From: a virus
IMG/VR virus record: IMGVR_UViG_3300017971_000175
Span: 1 to 31,768 of that record
Direction: 5' to 3' (one strand)
Length of the DNA stretch: 31,768 nt
Part shown: positions 1 to 31,768 of the stretch, one piece after another
How the letters are laid out: each line of letters starts with the position of its first letter
Numbering within the stretch: the stretch's first letter is position 1
Program-made: the position numbers and the translations under genes
The notes under the pieces: generated by a model
What the model was told of the DNA's origin: nothing
The model's database searches: none
The model's input: only the letters and a program-made list of their open reading frames with translations

Positions 1-123
1 CCCCCCCGCCGTGTACCTGCTAAAATGTGGCACAGTCCAATTAAGAATTAGAACATTGTAATGTCTTACTAGGTTTTCACAAGTCCACGCGACATCATCT
101 ATCAGTTGCGCGTTTGTGTCAAA
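1..123. repeat. Terminal direct repeat (circular overlap)
   Basis: Bases 1-123 are identical to 31646-31768. Genes read coherently across the joint, so this is best explained as an assembler overlap on a circular (or circularly permuted) genome, not a biological terminal repeat. The non-redundant unit is then 31,645 bp. Confidence 0.95.
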
Positions 124-654
124 TTTGTATGTTGATTTTTTAACAAGCCAAAAGCGCCCATCTGCTAAACCGCGATGACTAAATTTTTTTCGTAGGTTCA
201 TCGGGTTGTCGTGCAGGCCAAAACCAATCAAATGAATATTGTTGTGTTCTGCTAATTCAATCAGCTTAGGGAACATTTCGAACATTTCATTCAGATTCAT
301 AGCGGGTTGCTTGGTTAACCTGAATTGATTTTGGTTTTCAAACGTTACGTCTAAACTAAGTTTTTTAGATAAGATTTGTTGTTTAGGGTATGAAACAACC
401 TTCTTAAAATCGTCGCACATAAAAACAGCCCATTCGCCAACATCCATCATATTTAACGCGTGGTTGCGTTGATACGCAAGTCCTTTTTCAGCATTTGTAA
501 CTATGCCTTCGCCCCAAAGTGTTCCACCTTTTTTGAATAAATCATAGTCGGTTTCCTTATGTATTAGAACCCTATGTTTAATTCGATTTTCGTGCAACGC
601 TTTGCTAGTTGTCGCCGTATTAAACCGATTATAAAAAAACGTGAAAACCTTCAC
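1..654 (-). CDS. GT-A glycosyltransferase-like protein, N-terminal 218 codons (continues at 31644)
   Basis: Probable nucleotide-sugar transferase acting on oxidised DNA bases, like the TET/JBP-associated glycosyltransferases (TAGT); this role is inferred. The frame opens with GTG at 654 in a GTGA overlap with the stop of the ParB-like gene. Visible features are an N-terminal beta strand (KVFTFFYNRF), a GEGIVTNAEKGLAYQRN segment (about residues 48-64) typical of the GT-A sugar-nucleotide region, and an acidic FMCDD motif (78-82) in the place of a DxD metal site. The frame stays open to base 1, crosses the circular joint, and resumes at 31644 if the G-tract there has seven G. As written (eight G) it ends 22 codons later in an Arg/Lys-rich tail. 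GT fold fairly likely; TAGT subfamily less certain. Confidence 0.65.
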   Translation of the reverse strand, partial: MKVFTFFYNRFNTATTSKALHENRIKHRVLIHKETDYDLFKKGGTLWGEGIVTNAEKGLAYQRNHALNMMDVGEWAVFMCDDFKKVVSYPKQQILSKKLSLDVTFENQNQFRLTKQPAMNLNEMFEMFPKLIELAEHNNIHLIGFGLHDNPMNLRKKFSHRGLADGRFWLVKKSTYKFDTNAQLIDDVAWTCENLVRHYNVLILNWTVPHFSRYTAGG

Positions 655-1220
655 AGTTTGTTTTTTTCAGCCTTTAAAAAGTCTATAACCATCTTACCAA
701 CATACGCATCACGGTCGCGCCAAAATTTAACCAATTCGTACGCCTCGTCGTAGTGTTGTGGTTCAAACTCAATTTGTATTGCCTTCTTTACGCCGTCGGC
801 CATACCCTGCAATTCGCCGTCTACGTCTTCTTCGTCTAAAATACCGTAGTCTACTTCGTCTTCGGGTTGCCATACATCTAAACCCCATTCGGTAAGGCTT
901 ACAGCGTCCCAAGTATTAGCTAGGCTATCCCATTCCCATTGACCGAAACTAACGTTGTCTTTAATTATAAACTCGCGTTGTTTTTCTTCGGGCCAATCTA
1001 CAACCTCCACAGGCGCTTCTTTCCACCCTGCTTCCTGCATTGCCTTTAATCGCATATTGCCACCAAGTACAACCATATCCGTATTGACAACAATCGGTCG
1101 CACGTTTGCCATTTCGGGAAACTGCTTTAGGCTGTCAACTAGCTTTTTAAATTTATCGTCGCGAATGACGCGCGGGTTGTCTTCGTTTGGTTGTATGTTA
1201 GTTATTGCAGTAAGTTCCAT
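651..1220 (-). CDS. ParB/Srx-like domain protein
   Basis: 189 aa protein with an N-terminal ParB/sulfiredoxin-like domain. An IQPNEDNPR strand-turn starts the fold (about residues 9-17), followed by RPIVVN and the signature LGGNMRLKAMQEAGW (about 52-66), then a KDNVSFGQWEWD segment. This arrangement is the one commonly found next to or fused to phage DNA methyltransferases and other DNA-modifying enzymes; chromosome-partition ParB differs. The C-terminal third is acidic and has no recognised domain. Its stop overlaps the GTG start of the glycosyltransferase-like gene, and the TET/JBP-type oxygenase follows, so it probably belongs to the DNA-modification cassette. Whether it is a nuclease, NTPase or targeting factor cannot be told from sequence. 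Confidence 0.8.
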   Translation of the reverse strand: MELTAITNIQPNEDNPRVIRDDKFKKLVDSLKQFPEMANVRPIVVNTDMVVLGGNMRLKAMQEAGWKEAPVEVVDWPEEKQREFIIKDNVSFGQWEWDSLANTWDAVSLTEWGLDVWQPEDEVDYGILDEEDVDGELQGMADGVKKAIQIEFEPQHYDEAYELVKFWRDRDAYVGKMVIDFLKAEKNKL

Positions 1221-2591: not shown

Positions 2592-2826
2592 AGTGTTTAA
2601 AAACTAATATTATCAATGATATACCAAACAAAGTTGACGTTAAAAGTATCAATAATAAATTAACAATGCGTTCTATTTTTTTATCGTACTTCTTTGCCTG
2701 CACCTGTTGTTCTTCATATCCAAACATTTCTAGTCGTACTTTCTTTAAGGTTTGGCGTTCGGCTTGGTTCTTTGGCTTGTAACGCTTTAGCGCCTTCAAG
2801 ATTATTACCCTTTCCCGCTTAGTCAT
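2584..2826 (-). CDS. Small tail-anchored membrane protein
   Basis: 80 aa with a strongly basic, helical N-terminal half and one C-terminal membrane segment (about residues 54-76, VNLLLILLTSTLFGISLIILVF). The topology is that of a tail-anchored inner-membrane protein with a cytoplasmic basic domain. The ATG overlaps the stop of the replication gene, and its own stop overlaps the TTG start of the sigma-like gene, so all three are co-translated. No family is recognised. Possible roles such as membrane attachment of replication or an anti-host factor are guesses. Confidence 0.65.
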   Translation of the reverse strand: MTKRERVIILKALKRYKPKNQAERQTLKKVRLEMFGYEEQQVQAKKYDKKIERIVNLLLILLTSTLFGISLIILVFKHFA

Positions 2827-3481
2827 TCTTTAGTTTTTTGTGCAGGCCGCTAATTGCTTGCGCAACACTTGGCGGCGGCGTGTATGTTGGTTTCTGTTCT
2901 TGCTTTTTGTAGGTCTTTGGTTTTGCTTCGTAGATGTTAAGCCAACCGTTTTCTATTGCCTGTTCTACTTCTACAATATTTTGTTCTGTTGTTTTGTAAT
3001 TCATCTTCATGCAAATTGCGTCAATGCTTGTTTGCGGCCTTTGCTTGCCCCGTTCGTTGCACATCTTTAGCCAAGTATTAAAACGTTCGTTCAGTTTGTT
3101 GTTTTCAAAATAGCGCGCGCCCTGTTTTATATCATTTACACTTACACTATCATTAACACTTACACTTCCATTAACACTTACAGCTAGATTTGCTTGGCTT
3201 TGCTTGGCAATTGTAGCATTTGCTTGTTTTGCTTGCGCACCTTTACGCCCTGCACTTGCGCGCTTTTCTTTAATTGTTTCAAACTTTACCAAATCGCGTT
3301 TTAAGGCTTGTTTAATTGGTATAAAACACATCTTTGTTAAACGGTCGGGCGCTTCGGGTTGTTGGTCGTTAACGTACCTAAACAGGTGTTTAACTAACTT
3401 GCCCGCTTCTTCGTTGGTTAGTTCTTCAAACGCTTCTATCCAATCGCAATAAGCAACGAATGATTTTTTGTTTTTTGCCAT
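2819..3481 (-). CDS. Replication-initiation-type protein (DUF6291-like N-terminus)
   Basis: 220 aa. The N-terminal domain (about residues 1-85, from KKSFVAYCDWIEAFEEL) resembles the DUF6291-type domain at the front of many Bacteroidota phage replication proteins. The middle holds a Gln/Ala/Lys-rich linker and three SVSVND-type repeats (about 103-119), encoded by tandem 18-bp DNA repeats. The C-terminal part has a helical segment and a proline-rich tail. ATG 3481 was preferred over the GTG at 3511 because it follows the leader AACAGAACAGAAAATG. The DnaA-like gene lies just upstream. The layout recalls lambda O, whose gene contains the origin iterons. Initiator role inferred. Confidence 0.6.
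   Translation of the reverse strand: MAKNKKSFVAYCDWIEAFEELTNEEAGKLVKHLFRYVNDQQPEAPDRLTKMCFIPIKQALKRDLVKFETIKEKRASAGRKGAQAKQANATIAKQSQANLAVSVNGSVSVNDSVSVNDIKQGARYFENNKLNERFNTWLKMCNERGKQRPQTSIDAICMKMNYKTTEQNIVEVEQAIENGWLNIYEAKPKTYKKQEQKPTYTPPPSVAQAISGLHKKLKND
3130..3183 (-). repeat. Three tandem 18-bp iterons (candidate replication origin)
   Basis: Units 3130-3147, 3148-3165 and 3166-3183 share the pattern tatcattaacacttacac. Copy 2 differs from copy 1 at one position, and copy 3 differs from copy 2 at three. They lie inside the replication gene and encode its SVSVND repeats. Four CAAGCAAA-type short repeats follow at about 3190-3240. Unit length and intragenic position match the lambda O iterons; origin function is inferred. 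Confidence 0.5.
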
Positions 3482-3500
3482 TTTCTGTTCTGTTTTGTTG

Positions 3501-3572
3501 TTAGTCTTCACGTATGTAGCCGAATAGTGCCATTACTAGGTCAAGGGCCATTAGTTTAACTTTTTCTTTCAT
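3501..3572 (-). CDS. Micro-ORF between DnaA-like and replication genes
   Basis: A 23-codon open frame (MKEKVKLMALDL...YIRED) starts at ATG 3572 inside the end of the DnaA-like gene and stops at 3501. It is followed directly by the leader AACAACAAAACAGAACAGAAAATG of the replication gene. It may be a short leader peptide or translational coupler. It could equally be chance, since the amphipathic composition is the only hint of coding. Confidence 0.3.
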   Translation of the reverse strand: MKEKVKLMALDLVMALFGYIRED

Positions 3573-4020
3573 AGTGCTGTAGTTTAAACCTTTGTCCTTT
3601 TTTTACTACTTCAAAACCCATCGGGCGGATTATGTTGTTAACGTCTATTTTAAAACTGCGCTCGTACTCCATGTCTTCGTCAAACCTGCGCAACCCGTTC
3701 AATATTGTTGCGTGATTAAAACCACCCATCAATTCCCCTAACTTGTTAAGGCTGTAAGGCAGGTTCATCAATTCTTCACGCGTTAACCAATAAATAATCC
3801 GTCTTGCACGTACGTATTCGCTTAGCCTTGTTTCCCTGCTAAGTAGCTTTTCAACGTCTAGGCCGAAATAATCCGCTACGCGTTGCGCTATATTTCTAAA
3901 GCGTAAAGGCGCTGAGCCTTCTTCTGCGGCCATTTTGTGCATCATTTCGTGATTTGCTATTAGCCGTTCGCGAAACTCGCTTACAAGCGTTTCAATAGCT
4001 TCTTTTTCTTTTTCAGTCAT
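3556..4020 (-). CDS. DnaA domain IV-like DNA-binding protein
   Basis: 154 aa. The segment from about residue 43 to 118 follows the DnaA C-terminal domain: VADYFGLDVEKLLS, then ETRLSEYVRARRIIYWLTRE (basic helix), then LGELMGGFNHATILNGLRRF, which corresponds to the DnaA signature GGRDHSTVLHA. No AAA+ domain is present, so this is the DNA-binding module alone with a helical N-terminal extension. It probably recognises an origin or recruits host replication proteins; the neighbouring iteron-bearing gene supports this. The start overlaps the NinG-like gene by 8 bases. Confidence 0.75.
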   Translation of the reverse strand: MTEKEKEAIETLVSEFRERLIANHEMMHKMAAEEGSAPLRFRNIAQRVADYFGLDVEKLLSRETRLSEYVRARRIIYWLTREELMNLPYSLNKLGELMGGFNHATILNGLRRFDEDMEYERSFKIDVNNIIRPMGFEVVKKGQRFKLQHYERKS

Positions 4021-4399
4021 TCTGTTTTTGTTTATAGTGGTTAATCATGTCTATTAGTTCTGCGTTGCTGTACTTGGCTGTTTTGTTGCTTGCGTGCAAT
4101 ATTTCTTCGGCCTTGCCTGCGTAGAATTTTCGGTCAATAAATATGCTAAATTTATATTGTTCGCCCTGTTTGAACATATTACACCCCACGCATTGCGCGG
4201 CGCAATTGTCTTCATCCCAACGTGTAGCATATTTTGAACGTGTTATAAAGTGTCCGCATTGCATTTGCTTAATCGGTTTTTTTATGCCACACGTGCAACA
4301 GGTACAAATACCGTCAACGCTATCCCTTTGCCGTATGTATTGACTAAATACGGTGTCAAGTTTTGCAACTAGCTTTTTTCGCGATACTGTTTTTTTCAT
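4013..4399 (-). CDS. ninG: NinG-like recombination protein
   Basis: 128 aa. It matches the lambda NinG (Rap) pattern: a basic N-terminal helix KKLVAKLDTVFSQYIRQRDS, a zinc-ribbon CTCCTCG, then MQCGHFITRSKYATRWDEDNC and CVGCNMF. The Cys pairs plus the GHF-x-R core form the HNH/treble-clef-like nuclease domain of the family. NinG/Rap cleaves or resolves branched recombination intermediates. It lies within a recombination operon (ERF, YqaJ exonuclease, SSB-like) and its ATG overlaps the stop of the nuclease-like gene (ATGA). Confidence 0.85.
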   Translation of the reverse strand: MKKTVSRKKLVAKLDTVFSQYIRQRDSVDGICTCCTCGIKKPIKQMQCGHFITRSKYATRWDEDNCAAQCVGCNMFKQGEQYKFSIFIDRKFYAGKAEEILHASNKTAKYSNAELIDMINHYKQKQND

Positions 4400-4827
4400 A
4401 TTAAAGTAAATTGTTCTTTGCGAATTAGTAGAACCAACTCACGGTCGTACAACGAACCATCGCGGCGGCCGCGTTTTGTATAGCCGCAAAGCGCATCGTA
4501 CAGTTCGTGCAAAAAGAAATATCCAATGCAGTCTTTAAACCTAAACACAATACAACAGGGCACGCGTTGTTCTACGCTTCTTTTTTGCAAGCCGTATATT
4601 TTTTTCAGCGCAATGTATACCGCCTGTTTCGCGTCGTGATACGCTATTTTGTGCGTGGTTTTTACTTCTGCAATAGCAACCAATTTGCCGTCTTTATACA
4701 GGCTTGCGTCTACAATATTGTACTTATCGTTCAATTTGTACGTTAGGCCTTTTTCTTTACACAACAGGGCAAGAGTTTCGCTTTCCCTTGCCCTGTCTTG
4801 TTGTGTTTCAAACGTTGCGCCGTGCAT
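4396..4827 (-). CDS. PD-(D/E)XK-type nuclease-like protein
   Basis: 143 aa. The core reads DASLYKDGKLVAIAEVKTTHK (about residues 40-60): an acidic residue, a beta-hairpin, then AEVK, the D...ExK metal-binding signature of restriction-type nucleases. A YHDAKQAV helix follows, matching the alpha-helix after the active site. A strand pair (PCCIVFRFKDCIGYFFLHEL) completes the small fold. The partners around it suggest DNA processing in recombination or replication, such as a Holliday-junction or flap nuclease. Exact specificity unknown. TAATG overlap with the SSB-like gene. Confidence 0.6.
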   Translation of the reverse strand: MHGATFETQQDRARESETLALLCKEKGLTYKLNDKYNIVDASLYKDGKLVAIAEVKTTHKIAYHDAKQAVYIALKKIYGLQKRSVEQRVPCCIVFRFKDCIGYFFLHELYDALCGYTKRGRRDGSLYDRELVLLIRKEQFTLI

Positions 4828-5120
4828 TAGAACGGGTTATCGTTAAACTCATCGTTGAATTGGTTTGCCATGTCGCCATTCAACGGGCCTGCGTTATTAA
4901 CGGCCGCCTGTTGCGTTGGTTTCCACGTGTCTACTTCTATGTAGTGCGTTGGCTTGCCTTCCTGTGTGTTGCGTTTTTCTTTTACAACAGCATTGACCCA
5001 ACCGTTTTCTAGGTTTTTACTTAACACATCCAAGTCTTTACGGCTAAAACTAAGGGTCGTTAGTGGCCCGTATTGTGTTTCCTTTACTCTAGCGCTTCCG
5101 CAAAATTGTTTTTCTTCCAT
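4827..5120 (-). CDS. Single-stranded DNA-binding-like protein
   Basis: 97 aa, mainly beta (about residues 6-68), with a Gln/Asn-rich linker and an acidic tail ending FNDEFNDNPF. The tail resembles the DDDIPF-type C-terminal tip by which SSB recruits partner proteins. The protein is shorter than cellular SSB (about 150-180 aa), and I cannot assign an OB-fold from sequence alone. Its position between the exonuclease and nuclease genes, downstream of the ERF annealing protein, fits an SSB substitute for phage recombination and replication. Confidence 0.55.
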   Translation of the reverse strand: MEEKQFCGSARVKETQYGPLTTLSFSRKDLDVLSKNLENGWVNAVVKEKRNTQEGKPTHYIEVDTWKPTQQAAVNNAGPLNGDMANQFNDEFNDNPF

Positions 5121-5122
5121 TT

Positions 5123-5788
5123 TTAGTTATTTATTATTTGATTTTTAAAGTTATTACATTCTTTTACGCGTTCAATGATACGCTCTATAGCCTGTTCGTC
5201 GCGTTGTACTTCAAACGTTTTAATACGCATTTTTGCGTCAACGTCGGAATAGGTTAGTGCGTGGGTTATTGTGTCGCGCTGTTCGTCGGTTAATTCATCA
5301 ACGCCCTGTTTACGCGCCTCAATACGGTATTCGCTTTGCAACAGGTGCGTCGGCGTGTCCATTAGGCAGTAATCTATAAACGCTACAGGTTTGTCGGTTA
5401 ACCACATATAACCCTGCATTTGCCAATAATAGTCGCTATTCGGTAATTCTGTTTCGTAAATTGGAAACGTATCTAACGACCAACTACACTTGATGTCGCG
5501 TATTGCGTTGGGTGTAATAACGTCGGGCGTACCTGTTACGTATTCGTTTGCAAAGTGCGTTTCGTTCTTTTCAATAAACGGTAGGTCGTACGTTGCCGAC
5601 AATAGTTGTATTGCCTGTTCTTCCATCATATTACCTTTTACGGTTTGTTTACTTGAAAAGAATATGCGCTTGCCGTACTGTTGTTCCTTTAGGTACGTTT
5701 TAACGTACGACTGCGCTGTTTTGCTTAATTCGCCTTTCTTGCGGGCGTTGGTCATAACCTTGCCAAGTGCTGAACATCGTATTTTCAT
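5123..5788 (-). CDS. YqaJ-type viral recombinase exonuclease
   Basis: 221 aa. Motifs of the YqaJ/lambda-exonuclease PD-(D/E)XK family appear in order: a GNMMEEQAI helix (about residues 53-61), GTPDVI (metal Asp), DIKCSW with the D-x-K catalytic strand, and YYWQMQGYMWLT, the glutamine helix typical of this family. It would resect DNA ends 5' to 3' and load the ERF partner encoded immediately upstream. Start ATG 5788 was chosen because it forms an ATGA overlap with the ERF stop; the frame extends further (to 5818) without good reason. Confidence 0.85.
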   Translation of the reverse strand: MKIRCSALGKVMTNARKKGELSKTAQSYVKTYLKEQQYGKRIFFSSKQTVKGNMMEEQAIQLLSATYDLPFIEKNETHFANEYVTGTPDVITPNAIRDIKCSWSLDTFPIYETELPNSDYYWQMQGYMWLTDKPVAFIDYCLMDTPTHLLQSEYRIEARKQGVDELTDEQRDTITHALTYSDVDAKMRIKTFEVQRDEQAIERIIERVKECNNFKNQIINN

Positions 5789-6321
5789 GATTCTGCTTGT
5801 TTTAGTATTTCGGCCCACACGTTGTCGTTAACAACATAATACTTTTCTATCCTGTCGCGGTCGTAACCGTCTTGTATTGCGCGCACGGCTTTTTTAAACG
5901 CGTCGCTTCCAACAGTCATAACCTTTTTCGTGGCCTTTGTTTGTACTTGTTTGCCTTGCGCGTCTGTGTCCTTATCAGTGATTATTCCGAGCATAGACAA
6001 CGAATAACGTCTATAATATGTAATTGCCGAGCCCTGCGTTTGAAACGCGTTCATACCTGCTAATTCTACGTTTTGCGGTATTTCACATTCGCTAACAAGT
6101 TGTTCGCCGCTTTCTAAGTGCGTTAGTATGGTTTTAATGTTGTTACCGTGCAACGGTTGCGACAAAACCAAACCGTGCTTCCTTAGTAGTGGCGTTATAA
6201 CGCTCATAATACTTGGCAGGTCGGCGTATTTATATTTGAACGCCTGTGTGCTTTTCTCAATTACGGGGCAATCCTGTTGAAAGTCGCTAACCGCTTGCCA
6301 TAAATTACTTTGCTTTTTCAT
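5785..6321 (-). CDS. erf: ERF-type single-strand annealing protein
   Basis: 178 aa. It matches the ERF superfamily: an N-terminal LWQAVSDFQ helix, FKYKYADLPSIM (the KYAxL motif, about residues 28-39), a PLLRKHGLVLSQPL strand, and QTQGSAITYYRRYSLSMLGI followed by DKDTDAQG. ERF proteins anneal complementary single strands in phage recombination and genome circularisation. ATG 6321 was preferred over the in-frame TTG at 6327. It overlaps the small HTH gene upstream and is coupled to the exonuclease downstream. Confidence 0.9.
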   Translation of the reverse strand: MKKQSNLWQAVSDFQQDCPVIEKSTQAFKYKYADLPSIMSVITPLLRKHGLVLSQPLHGNNIKTILTHLESGEQLVSECEIPQNVELAGMNAFQTQGSAITYYRRYSLSMLGIITDKDTDAQGKQVQTKATKKVMTVGSDAFKKAVRAIQDGYDRDRIEKYYVVNDNVWAEILKQAES

Positions 6322-28968: not shown

Positions 28969-30207
28969 TTAGCGTATAGCGTAGCGGCCTGCGTTGGTGT
29001 TTAGTTTTTCCATCGCCACGTACCTAAGCGCGTCCATAGCGTGGTTATTTGCGTCTTCGGGAACGTTGGTTGCTTGGTTTGTTTTAAAGTCGCGTTTCCA
29101 CGCGTACGCCTTTAATTCACGTATAACATTTATTGAATCTTGGTGTACCATTATTTGCACGCTTTTCAATTTGTCTATGCCTGCACGTACCGAATCCGTG
29201 CCCTTTTTTACGCCCCTAATCCTAAACCCGTGCCGCCGTATTTCTTCAATCGACTTAGGTTCTGCGCTGTCGGCAATTATTTCGTCATTCGGTTTTAGTT
29301 TGCACCTGTTGGCAATATCGGCGTTCATTAAACCTGTTTCGTATAACAGTTCCCTAACCCACAGTTTGCCGTCGTTATACCAAACTTCCACAAGCGCGGT
29401 CGGGTCATGCGTAAACCCAAAGTCAAGGCCATAGGCTTTCCACTTGTAACCCGTTGGCCAATCCTTCGTTTCGTTCCAATTGGTGTAAATAGCCCCTTCC
29501 CTGCGCGCGCGTTGGCCTAAGCCGTACACCTTCCATTTATAGTCGTCAGCCGTGCCCCTTACAATGTTGTCGGGCGTTGGTTCGTATGACAGTATTTTGT
29601 TGCGTATATGGTCGTCTAGAAAGGTGTTGTCTAGCATTGTTGAATGTATGTAAACAACGTCGGGCCTTTTTAGCACACTATCATAAATCCAATGGTCGTC
29701 GGTGCTTGGGTTGTAGTCTATTATCCATTTGCCCCTGCAACGCTGTTCTAATTGGTCAAAAGAATCTTTGCTTGTTTCTATTGCTTCGTTAAGCCAAAAA
29801 AAATCGGTTTCAATACCGTGCAACTTTTGCGAATCGTCTAGGCCGTAAAACTCAAAAGAAGAACCGTAGTGCTTGTAAGTTAGTTCGCTTTTATTAAAGT
29901 CTTCGTCTTGCCATTGGTCAAGGCTGTTAAACACTTTTTTAAAGGTGTCTAGTACGGTTGGTTTTATCCACGTACGGCGTAGGCGGGCAATTGCAAAACG
30001 TTTCGGGCTGTTTATGCCTAGCAGGTAAATCGCTTGACAGATTGACCAAGTTTTAGAACTACGCGAACCGCCTTCTAGCACAACGCCGCGAACCTTGTCG
30101 TGGTTTAGTGCAGTCCACAATTCCCTAAAAACCCGTGTCGCTTCAATAGTCAACTTCTTTAGCCCTTTGCCCTTTGTAGTGGTAATCTTTGCGCTGTGGG
30201 TATGCAA
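28969..30207 (-). CDS. terL: Terminase large subunit
   Basis: 412 aa. ATPase motifs: Walker A GGSRSSKT (residues 46-53) and Walker B DFFWLNEA. Nuclease motifs: GLDFGFTHDP (first Asp), IADSAEPKSIEEI (second) and NHAMDALRY (third), as in the Terminase_3/XtmB type. It pumps DNA into proheads and cuts it. It starts at TTG 30207, 26 bases after the small subunit's stop; I see no in-frame ATG near it. The family usually uses headful packaging, which agrees with the circular assembly. After its stop lies the moron promoter. Confidence 0.95.
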   Translation of the reverse strand: MHTHSAKITTTKGKGLKKLTIEATRVFRELWTALNHDKVRGVVLEGGSRSSKTWSICQAIYLLGINSPKRFAIARLRRTWIKPTVLDTFKKVFNSLDQWQDEDFNKSELTYKHYGSSFEFYGLDDSQKLHGIETDFFWLNEAIETSKDSFDQLEQRCRGKWIIDYNPSTDDHWIYDSVLKRPDVVYIHSTMLDNTFLDDHIRNKILSYEPTPDNIVRGTADDYKWKVYGLGQRARREGAIYTNWNETKDWPTGYKWKAYGLDFGFTHDPTALVEVWYNDGKLWVRELLYETGLMNADIANRCKLKPNDEIIADSAEPKSIEEIRRHGFRIRGVKKGTDSVRAGIDKLKSVQIMVHQDSINVIRELKAYAWKRDFKTNQATNVPEDANNHAMDALRYVAMEKLNTNAGRYAIR

Positions 30208-30233: not shown

Positions 30234-30668
30234 TTATTTCTTTCGCTTCGGCTTACCCTGTTGTTCATTTGGTTCTTTTATTATAATTTCCACCGTGTCG
30301 GGCTTGCCACCGTTAACGGTTTGGTCTATTTCTTCTTTTGGCTTGCCGTACACCCTGTCAAACAACACGTCCAAAATATGTATTGAACCCCTGCTAAAAT
30401 CGCGTTGTGCCTTGTTTGCTATTAGCGCTATCCAAAAAGGCAGTTCTTCGTTTTTGGCTAATTCTATCAACTCGTTTCGGTTCTTGCCTAGTATGTTCTT
30501 AATAATATCTTGAACCTGCGTTTTGCTCAACTTTAGGTTGTGTTCTTCTAGGAAATGTTCCTTTAGTAGCGTTTCAATATTCTTTGGCCGCCCTGCAGGG
30601 TTACCGCTTTCGCCTTTTTCAAACCTATTTACAGCGCCGCCGTGCGCTTGTTTTACCTTCTTGCTCAC
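30234..30668 (-). CDS. terS: Terminase small subunit-like protein
   Basis: 144 aa. The N-terminus has FEKGESGNPAGRPKN (about residues 16-30), the DUF5681-type motif typical of this group of phage DNA-packaging proteins. It is followed by a helical core (LSKTQVQDIIKNILGKNRNELIELAKN) and a basic C-terminal tail (KPKRKK). It precedes the large terminase, the standard position of terS, and follows the TET/JBP-type gene by five bases. It recognises phage DNA and starts packaging. Confidence 0.75.
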   Translation of the reverse strand: MSKKVKQAHGGAVNRFEKGESGNPAGRPKNIETLLKEHFLEEHNLKLSKTQVQDIIKNILGKNRNELIELAKNEELPFWIALIANKAQRDFSRGSIHILDVLFDRVYGKPKEEIDQTVNGGKPDTVEIIIKEPNEQQGKPKRKK

Positions 30669-30673
30669 CTTTG

Positions 30674-31471
30674 TTAGTCCTTTGTTAGAAATGCTTTTAG
30701 CGGGTAGAATATTAGGCTGTTTCTATAGCCGCCTTCGTATGTTGGTTCTATTGGTGTTACACCGTGAACGTTTTTCCACGCGGGGTATACTAAAATAGAA
30801 TTGTCGCATTGGTCAACGGTTGCGTTATATTCGGGAACGTGCAGGTTGCCGCCTTTACTATTGCGTCGCTTTGTGATAATTACGTTAACAGCCCCTTGTA
30901 TGTTACCCGTATCCCTATGGAACGGCGCGCTGATATTGTAGTTGCTTATTGAACTAGTGAACAGGTTAGCAAAGCGCCATTCTTTAGGTACGTTTTCAAA
31001 TAGCTTTTTTTGCTGTTGGTATTGTTCGGGCAATATTTCGGCTATTAGTTTTTCGCTTTCTTTGGCAAGCAATAACATAGCCTTTATGAACGTTTGCGCT
31101 GTTTTGACTTGGTGCACGCTACTCATTGAAGGGTAAGGCCGTTTCATGTGTGGTTTTGGCGGTATGCCACCAAGTATCGCGCTCATCTGTGTTACCAACT
31201 CAACGCCGTCTTTTTTTCGCTGTGCCTTTTGTTGCTTGTTCCCTTGCGGGCCTCGGCTCATTTCTGTTTTTGGCACGTTTTGGCTGTTAAATTCTGCGTT
31301 GGCTACGTCTGCAATTTTACAAGCCTTAGCAGGTAGCTTTCGCATATAAAAACCTATCGGCTTTCCGTCGTCGTAGAATATGCAGTCTTCCGTAATGTTT
31401 GGTTTGTATGCTTTGCACTTGTCGCCAATCTTTACGCTGTGTTCGGTTTGTATCAATTCTAGCTTTTTCAA
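30674..31471 (-). CDS. TET/JBP-type 2-oxoglutarate/Fe(II) DNA dioxygenase
   Basis: 265 aa. The C-terminal half carries the double-stranded beta-helix with the iron-binding triad H185-x-D187 (in PFHRDTGN) and H236 (in KNVHGV), and the 2-oxoglutarate-binding R250 (in GGYRNSLIF). The surrounding segments GAVNVIITKRR, GGNLHVPEYNATV and SILVYPAWKNVHGVTPI are those of phage TET/JBP proteins. These oxidise the methyl group of 5-methylcytosine or thymine in DNA. It starts at TTG 31471, with a TTGA overlap to the glycosyltransferase-like gene, so the two products are probably used together. No recognisable DNA methyltransferase is present in this genome. Confidence 0.85.
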   Translation of the reverse strand: MKKLELIQTEHSVKIGDKCKAYKPNITEDCIFYDDGKPIGFYMRKLPAKACKIADVANAEFNSQNVPKTEMSRGPQGNKQQKAQRKKDGVELVTQMSAILGGIPPKPHMKRPYPSMSSVHQVKTAQTFIKAMLLLAKESEKLIAEILPEQYQQQKKLFENVPKEWRFANLFTSSISNYNISAPFHRDTGNIQGAVNVIITKRRNSKGGNLHVPEYNATVDQCDNSILVYPAWKNVHGVTPIEPTYEGGYRNSLIFYPLKAFLTKD

Positions 31472-31644
31472 CCAAAAATTCTTTTGCGTGCTTTAATTAT
31501 GTTTTTGCTGTTGCCGAATATTCTAATGTGCGTACCGTAATCCCAATTCGGTTTCTTAGCTATTTTAACCAACGGGTCAAACTTTGCGCACAGATAGGCG
31601 CACTCTTTTTTTCGCAGTTCTTTTCTTTCCTCTGTTGAACCAAA
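31468..31644 (-). CDS. GT-A glycosyltransferase-like protein, C-terminal 58 codons
   Basis: Continuation of the gene starting at 654. This frame reads FGSTEERKELRKKECAYLCA, then FDPLVKIAKKPNWDYGTHIRI and a basic end, and stops at TGA 31468, overlapping the TTG of the TET/JBP gene. In the reconstructed protein (276 aa) it supplies the RYTAGGFGS and W-x-YG-x-H-I-R-I segments expected at the end of TAGT-like glycosyltransferases. It joins the N-terminal part only if the adjacent C-run on the plus strand has seven C; eight are present as written. Possible causes are an assembly error, a mixed population, or frameshifting at G GGG GGG. Confidence 0.6.
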   Translation of the reverse strand, partial: FGSTEERKELRKKECAYLCAKFDPLVKIAKKPNWDYGTHIRIFGNSKNIIKARKRIFG

Positions 31645-31652
31645 CCCCCCCC
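31645..31652 (-). repeat. Homopolymeric G8 tract in glycosyltransferase gene
   Basis: Eight C on the plus strand (31645-31652). The window also begins inside this run (bases 1-7). A run of seven restores one continuous 276-codon frame; eight truncates the product. Confidence 0.8.
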
Positions 31653-31768
31653 GCCGTGTACCTGCTAAAATGTGGCACAGTCCAATTAAGAATTAGAACA
31701 TTGTAATGTCTTACTAGGTTTTCACAAGTCCACGCGACATCATCTATCAGTTGCGCGTTTGTGTCAAA
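31646..31768. repeat. Terminal direct repeat, second copy
   Basis: Identical to 1-123. It duplicates codons of the glycosyltransferase gene and adds no new content. Confidence 0.95.

Follow-up and report, generated by a model that had tools for sequence, protein, structure and literature searches.

A ParB and TET/JBP cassette with an exchangeable decorating gene, predicted to hypermodify thymine in phage DNA

The window, by which is meant the whole 31,768-nucleotide stretch of DNA analysed, carries an identical 123-bp repeat at its two ends; the ends can therefore be joined, and the genome closes into a circular phage genome of 31,645 bp. When read across the joint, a ParB-like gene is followed by a glycosyltransferase (GT) gene and a gene for a TET/JBP-family dioxygenase, after which come a small DUF5681 gene and the large terminase gene (Table 1), in agreement with the initial annotation, which had described three overlapping genes in front of the terminase. 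The ParB-like gene and the GT gene overlap in the sequence GTGA, the GTG of which is the start codon of the latter at 654, and the dioxygenase gene starts within the sequence TTGA (31471-31468), so that both the proposed GTGA joint and the proposed use of non-ATG starts by the two enzymes of the window (GTG and TTG) could be recovered. In the relatives the corresponding joint to the dioxygenase is ATGA in 101 out of 110 cases. The large terminase is most similar to its counterparts in Bacteroides phages, at ~36% identity, which is consistent with, without proving, the earlier proposal of a Bacteroidota phage, and on this sequence similarity the host probably belongs to the Bacteroidota. The major capsid candidate of the window gave no match among the records searched. 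A further small protein of the phage, encoded at 3556-4020, contains the C-terminal DNA-binding domain of DnaA (PF08299).

Table 1. Positions of the cassette genes, the terminase genes and the repeats in the window.
Feature	Position	Strand	Characteristics
GT, residues 1-218	1..654	-	GTG start; GTGA overlap with the ParB-like gene; phrog_842 E 8.7e-5
End repeat, copy 1	1..123	.	Identical to 31646-31768
ParB-like gene, first gene of the cassette	651..1220	-	189 aa, ATG start; PF02195 ParB_N E 1.6e-6, above cut-off
Large terminase	28969..30207	-	PF04466 E 1.8e-20, PF17288 E 3.2e-18
DUF5681 small gene, probable small terminase	30234..30668	-	PF18932 E 5.4e-9; immediately precedes the large terminase gene
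TET/JBP-family Fe(II)/2-oxoglutarate dioxygenase	30674..31471	-	265 aa, TTG start; PF12851, active site, fold
GT, C-terminal part in the frame of the relatives	31468..31645	-	TGA overlaps the TTG of the dioxygenase (TTGA)
C8 run (G8 on the coding strand)	31645..31652	-	At the contig joint; shifts the GT frame
End repeat, copy 2	31646..31768	.	Identical to 1..123

The GT gene is intact and in one frame in about 30 relatives, where it encodes 274-278 aa, while as assembled in the window it runs out of frame at the C8 run. The copy of the repeat at the start of the contig (1-7) has seven C at this place. The N-terminal part is 62-77% identical to the relatives, and the other frame of the window matches their contiguous C-terminal tails at 52-77% identity. 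The TTGA joint between the GT and the dioxygenase, claimed from the first inspection, is thus found in the shifted frame used by the relatives and is lost in the assembly, where the broken GT frame meets a stop at 31577. A conserved slippery or phase-variable tract was considered and rejected, since the relatives have mixed codons at this position, contain no such run and keep the frame; an assembly or sequencing length error and a local mutation are both possible causes of the break.

A Pfam profile search of the dioxygenase, of the kind that had been proposed for it, gave a match to Tet_JBP (PF12851; E 4.4e-11, 42.7 bits) above the curated cut-off of 34.9, and the iron site H-x-D...H together with the 2-oxoglutarate arginine could be assigned to H185/D187, H236 and R250. 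All four residues are invariant across 52 aligned dioxygenases, including one from a cyanophage and three from actinophages, confirming the complete active site in a TET/JBP context that had been noted. The structure model (pLDDT 91.7) shows a TET-type double-stranded beta-helix fold with human TET2 as the top fold match (Z 19.1, rmsd 3.6, 244 aligned), followed by NgTET1 (Z 18.7) and then CcTet and CMD1, compared with Z ≤14.6 for FTO and AlkB; the TET fold, for which a structure test had been set beforehand, is hence what the model indicates.

The same kind of structure test had been set for the partner, and here the full-length GT of the relative L002 (77% identical) was modelled (pLDDT 92.8), giving a GT-A fold of the GT2 type, as expected, near TarP, AvpGT, GalNAc-T2 and other nucleotide-sugar enzymes. 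The residues D81-D82 and D187, forming the metal/nucleotide-sugar Asp motif, are invariant even across divergent GTs found at the same place in other genomes. The profile search of the partner against the TAGT family (PF20691) had a different outcome, as the L002 protein reached 14.2 bits (E 0.042) against a cut-off of 27.5 and the N-terminal part of the window GT gave no PF20691 match in the Pfam search. When profiles were compared, the GT family showed a weak link to true TAGTs (hhalign 75%, E 2.5e-5 over 107 columns) and joined firmly with a family of 234-aa GTs occupying the same place in relatives. TAGTs are GT-A enzymes, many of them solitary in phages (PMC13216743). Like the TAGTs of PF20691 (T2/T6 beta-glucosyl-HMC-alpha-glucosyltransferase; PMC13216743) the window GT has a GT-A fold, adjoins a TET/JBP gene and shows a weak phrog_842 link, but it differs in falling below the Pfam cut-off, in an extra C-terminal part and in its separate branch; judged by these profiles it is best described as TAGT-like on a branch of its own, and it is not filed as a TAGT. 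Among the phage records searched no match to the GT was found.

The viral contigs scanned yielded dioxygenase relatives, of which the best 80 of 162 were taken, and 33 GT relatives, and the order ParB, an intervening slot and dioxygenase recurs in dozens of divergent contigs, for which reason it can not be due to chance. Among the relatives listed, ParB lies upstream of the dioxygenase in all 61 that extend more than 3.2 kb in that direction, and a relative of the window's large terminase is detectable downstream in 35 of 55 loci; a terminase downstream of the cassette is also present in a Prochlorococcus phage and in actinophages. In L003 and L011 ParB is followed straight by the dioxygenase and then by the terminase genes, leaving the slot empty, and ParB and the dioxygenase are therefore regarded as the core, the constancy of ParB suggesting a function in support of the dioxygenase. 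Proteins with a ParB domain are likewise found alongside another system of phage hypermodification (PMC12783734).

A census of the slot in 115 loci, whose counts are not frequencies since the sample favours close relatives and includes near-duplicates, gave the window-type GT in 32, the 234-aa GT in 20, an FkbM methyltransferase in 15, a Pfam TAGT in 11 (a true TAGT, PF20691 E 3.8e-16, being among the alternatives), sets of kinase and transferase in seven (in L050 the kinase alone was seen), a GT with a sulfotransferase in five, a GT with a nucleotidyltransferase in one and other GTs in smaller numbers, while the slot was empty in three and cut off or unseen in six. In a further three loci it holds a 301-aa protein with no family match, which at a guess is a GT-B enzyme. 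Pairs of phages were found that differ in the slot although their flanking sequences match at 93-98% (ParB side) and 89-98% (dioxygenase side). The DNA of L075 and L076 agrees at 96-98% through ParB, then gives way to unrelated genes, and the match resumes at that level where the dioxygenase begins. For L007 and L012 the identities of the two flanks are 93-97% and 89%, the slot of the former holding an amidotransferase, an acetyltransferase, an amino-acid:DNA transferase and a P-loop kinase (a weak match) and that of the latter an FkbM methyltransferase. On the dioxygenase tree of the relatives listed the slot type has changed at least 26 times.

Several of the slot proteins are of unfamiliar kinds. 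The FkbM-type methyltransferase (PF05050), which replaces the GT in L008, L009, L012, L013, L113 and others, might O-methylate a hydroxymethyl base; to our knowledge no such base has been described from any phage. In L027, L051, L054, L056 and L070 a sulfotransferase (PF03567) follows the GT, suggesting sulfated glycosyl bases, and in L075 a 598-aa protein with a nucleotidyltransferase domain (4127-5923) perhaps supplies the sugar donor to the neighbouring GT. In the Mycobacterium phage LilMcDreamy (L114) the dioxygenase and an amino-acid:DNA transferase are followed by a protein with an aspartyl/asparaginyl beta-hydroxylase domain (2656-3759), which may act on the base-attached amino acid.

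The substrate of TET enzymes is a 5-methyl pyrimidine, and to address which base is concerned the genomes were searched for enzymes acting on either pyrimidine. The closed genome of the window lacks a C5-cytosine methyltransferase (PF00145), as do 29 of the 33 records searched and 15 records with more distant TET/JBP proteins, and in the four records that have one it lies outside the cassette. A thymidylate-synthase-type hydroxymethylase was found neither in the window nor in any of the 33 records. The amino-acid:DNA transferase is absent from the window genome; together with a kinase it is present in the slot of L007, whose dioxygenase is 67% identical, and the dioxygenase operons of the actinophages LilMcDreamy, Tonitrus of Rhodococcus and Margaery contain this transferase, a transferase with a kinase, and a kinase, respectively. 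Both enzymes belong to thymidine hypermodification, in which the 5hmdU of the DNA is first phosphorylated, substitution being the next step (PMC6449724). The lack of a C5-methyltransferase in the window makes thymine likelier than methylcytosine, and together with the lack of a hydroxymethylase and the thymidine (5hmU) pathway in the slot relatives it points to thymine as the most likely substrate, with glycosylated 5-hydroxymethyluracil as the predicted product; on this gene content we hold thymine to be quite probable.

If instead the cassette were directed at cytosine, the dioxygenase would oxidise 5-methylcytosine made by host or phage and the GT would glycosylate the resulting 5-hydroxymethylcytosine, and the phage TET systems published do combine a TET enzyme with glycosyltransferases and a C5-methyltransferase (PMC12730594, citing Burke et al. 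2021). The methyl group could come from a methyltransferase of the host, four of the 33 records do have a C5-methyltransferase, and the residue aligned with N1387 of TET2 is kept (N190), but the enzyme is missing from the window, from the other 29 records and from the 15 further ones, it lies outside the cassette where present, and the thymidine-pathway enzymes of the slot variants speak for the other pyrimidine. In addition, the position of His1904 in TET2, a contact to 5-methylcytosine, is occupied by an invariant leucine (L258), both here and in the kinase-linked actinophage enzymes. TETs linked to C5-methyltransferases were sought in the P12024L family and none were found, so the His/Leu argument stands without that comparison group; P12024L and its relatives form a separate TET-TAGT branch with arginine at the His1904 position, and in P12024L an N6/N4 methyltransferase adjoins the TAGT. 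Taken together a cytosine substrate is considered unlikely.

A dioxygenase acting on DNA might also be merely co-located with a GT directed at host surface glycans or protein, as the GT2-like family, the fold neighbours acting on teichoic acid and proteins, and the TAGT match below the Pfam cut-off could suggest. This is highly improbable when it is considered that the GT is always flanked by ParB and the dioxygenase, overlapping its neighbours at the ends, and that the alternatives in its slot include the true TAGT and the amino-acid:DNA transferase. Even harder to credit is an AlkB-like demethylase or repair enzyme that strips methyl marks of the host and has nothing to do with its neighbouring genes; the double-stranded beta-helix is indeed common to FTO and AlkB, but the model is clearly closer to TET2 and NgTET1 (Z 19), the Pfam assignment is Tet_JBP and the slot is occupied by decoration enzymes.

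The preferred reading, to which we assign a probability of about 0.7, is that the cassette hypermodifies phage DNA by converting thymine to 5-hydroxymethyluracil and further to a sugar-bearing base. On phage DNA that has been replicated the dioxygenase, probably loaded or guided there by the ParB-like protein, would hydroxylate thymine at its 5-methyl group, and the GT would add a presumed sugar to the hydroxyl group, giving a base-J-like base that may protect the genome against host nucleases. The position in front of the terminase suggests that the modification takes place ahead of packaging, perhaps shortly before it. Slot swapping in related phages would make the hydroxymethyl base a common handle for different decorations. 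The broader proposal, that a widespread ParB and TET/JBP core makes thymine-derived 5-hydroxymethyluracil which the slot gene diversifies, leaving near-identical phages with chemically different DNA and some undescribed bases (methoxymethyl, sulfated glycosyl), is put at even odds.

If true, these phages could alter the chemical coat of their DNA by the exchange of one gene, in the way capsule genes are exchanged among bacteria, and this would account for their staying one step ahead of host defences that depend on modification. In that case the dioxygenases would be DNA thymine hydroxylases, a useful type of enzyme and the phage counterpart of the base J enzymes, and the slot genes offer a ready list of candidate DNA-modifying enzymes. 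The core is carried by isolated phages of Prochlorococcus, Mycobacterium, Rhodococcus and Microbacterium and is directly testable there.

TET/JBP enzymes were reportedly connected by Iyer et al. in 2013 with glycosyltransferases working on phage DNA. A phage hypermodification system of this kind has been published and concerns cytosine (PMC12730594, citing Burke et al. 2021 PNAS). The window resembles that system in coupling a phage TET/JBP enzyme to a glycosyltransferase with a predicted glycosylated hydroxymethyl pyrimidine as product, but differs in the lack of a C5-methyltransferase, the ParB gene, the single exchangeable slot and the place beside the terminase. The new part is the methyltransferase-free form with a swappable slot; in the limited literature accessible no description was found of a methyltransferase-free ParB/TET core by the terminase with demonstrated exchange of decorating genes. 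The predicted chemistry, from thymine through 5-hydroxymethyluracil to a glycosylated base, equals that of kinetoplastid base J (JBP1/2 with a glycosyltransferase), from which the window differs in having phage enzymes, a ParB protein instead of a fused J-binding domain and another glycosyltransferase. The phages M6, ViI and phiW-14 (PMC6449724) share the amino-acid:DNA transferase and P-loop kinase with the slot variants and actinophage relatives, but there 5hmdU arises at the nucleotide level, ahead of replication, whereas formation by TET/JBP within DNA is predicted here, and the window itself carries the GT variant.

The same order of ParB, slot, dioxygenase (51% identical), small gene and large terminase was found in Prochlorococcus phage MED4-184 / P-HS2 and cyanophage MED4-117, in which, unlike in the window, the slot contains an FkbM methyltransferase. 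Here the genes carry the labels 'DNA methylase' and 'queuine tRNA-ribosyltransferase', as in L113 (NC_020847.1; 13662-15786), where the former label is given to the ParB-like gene and the latter to the dioxygenase; the latter is also used for the dioxygenase family in PHROGs (phrog_6059) and several phage records. A Pfam search of the relatives so labelled revealed no queuine tRNA-ribosyltransferase domain but Tet_JBP, below cut-off, and no other family, so the label was rejected and looks like a propagated error, and 'DNA methylase' was likewise rejected as the ParB-like gene of these relatives matches ParB_N with 23.4 bits, slightly under the cut-off of 26.3 bits. Both public labels look wrong and appear to mask a TET/JBP clade in cyanobacterial and actinobacterial phages.
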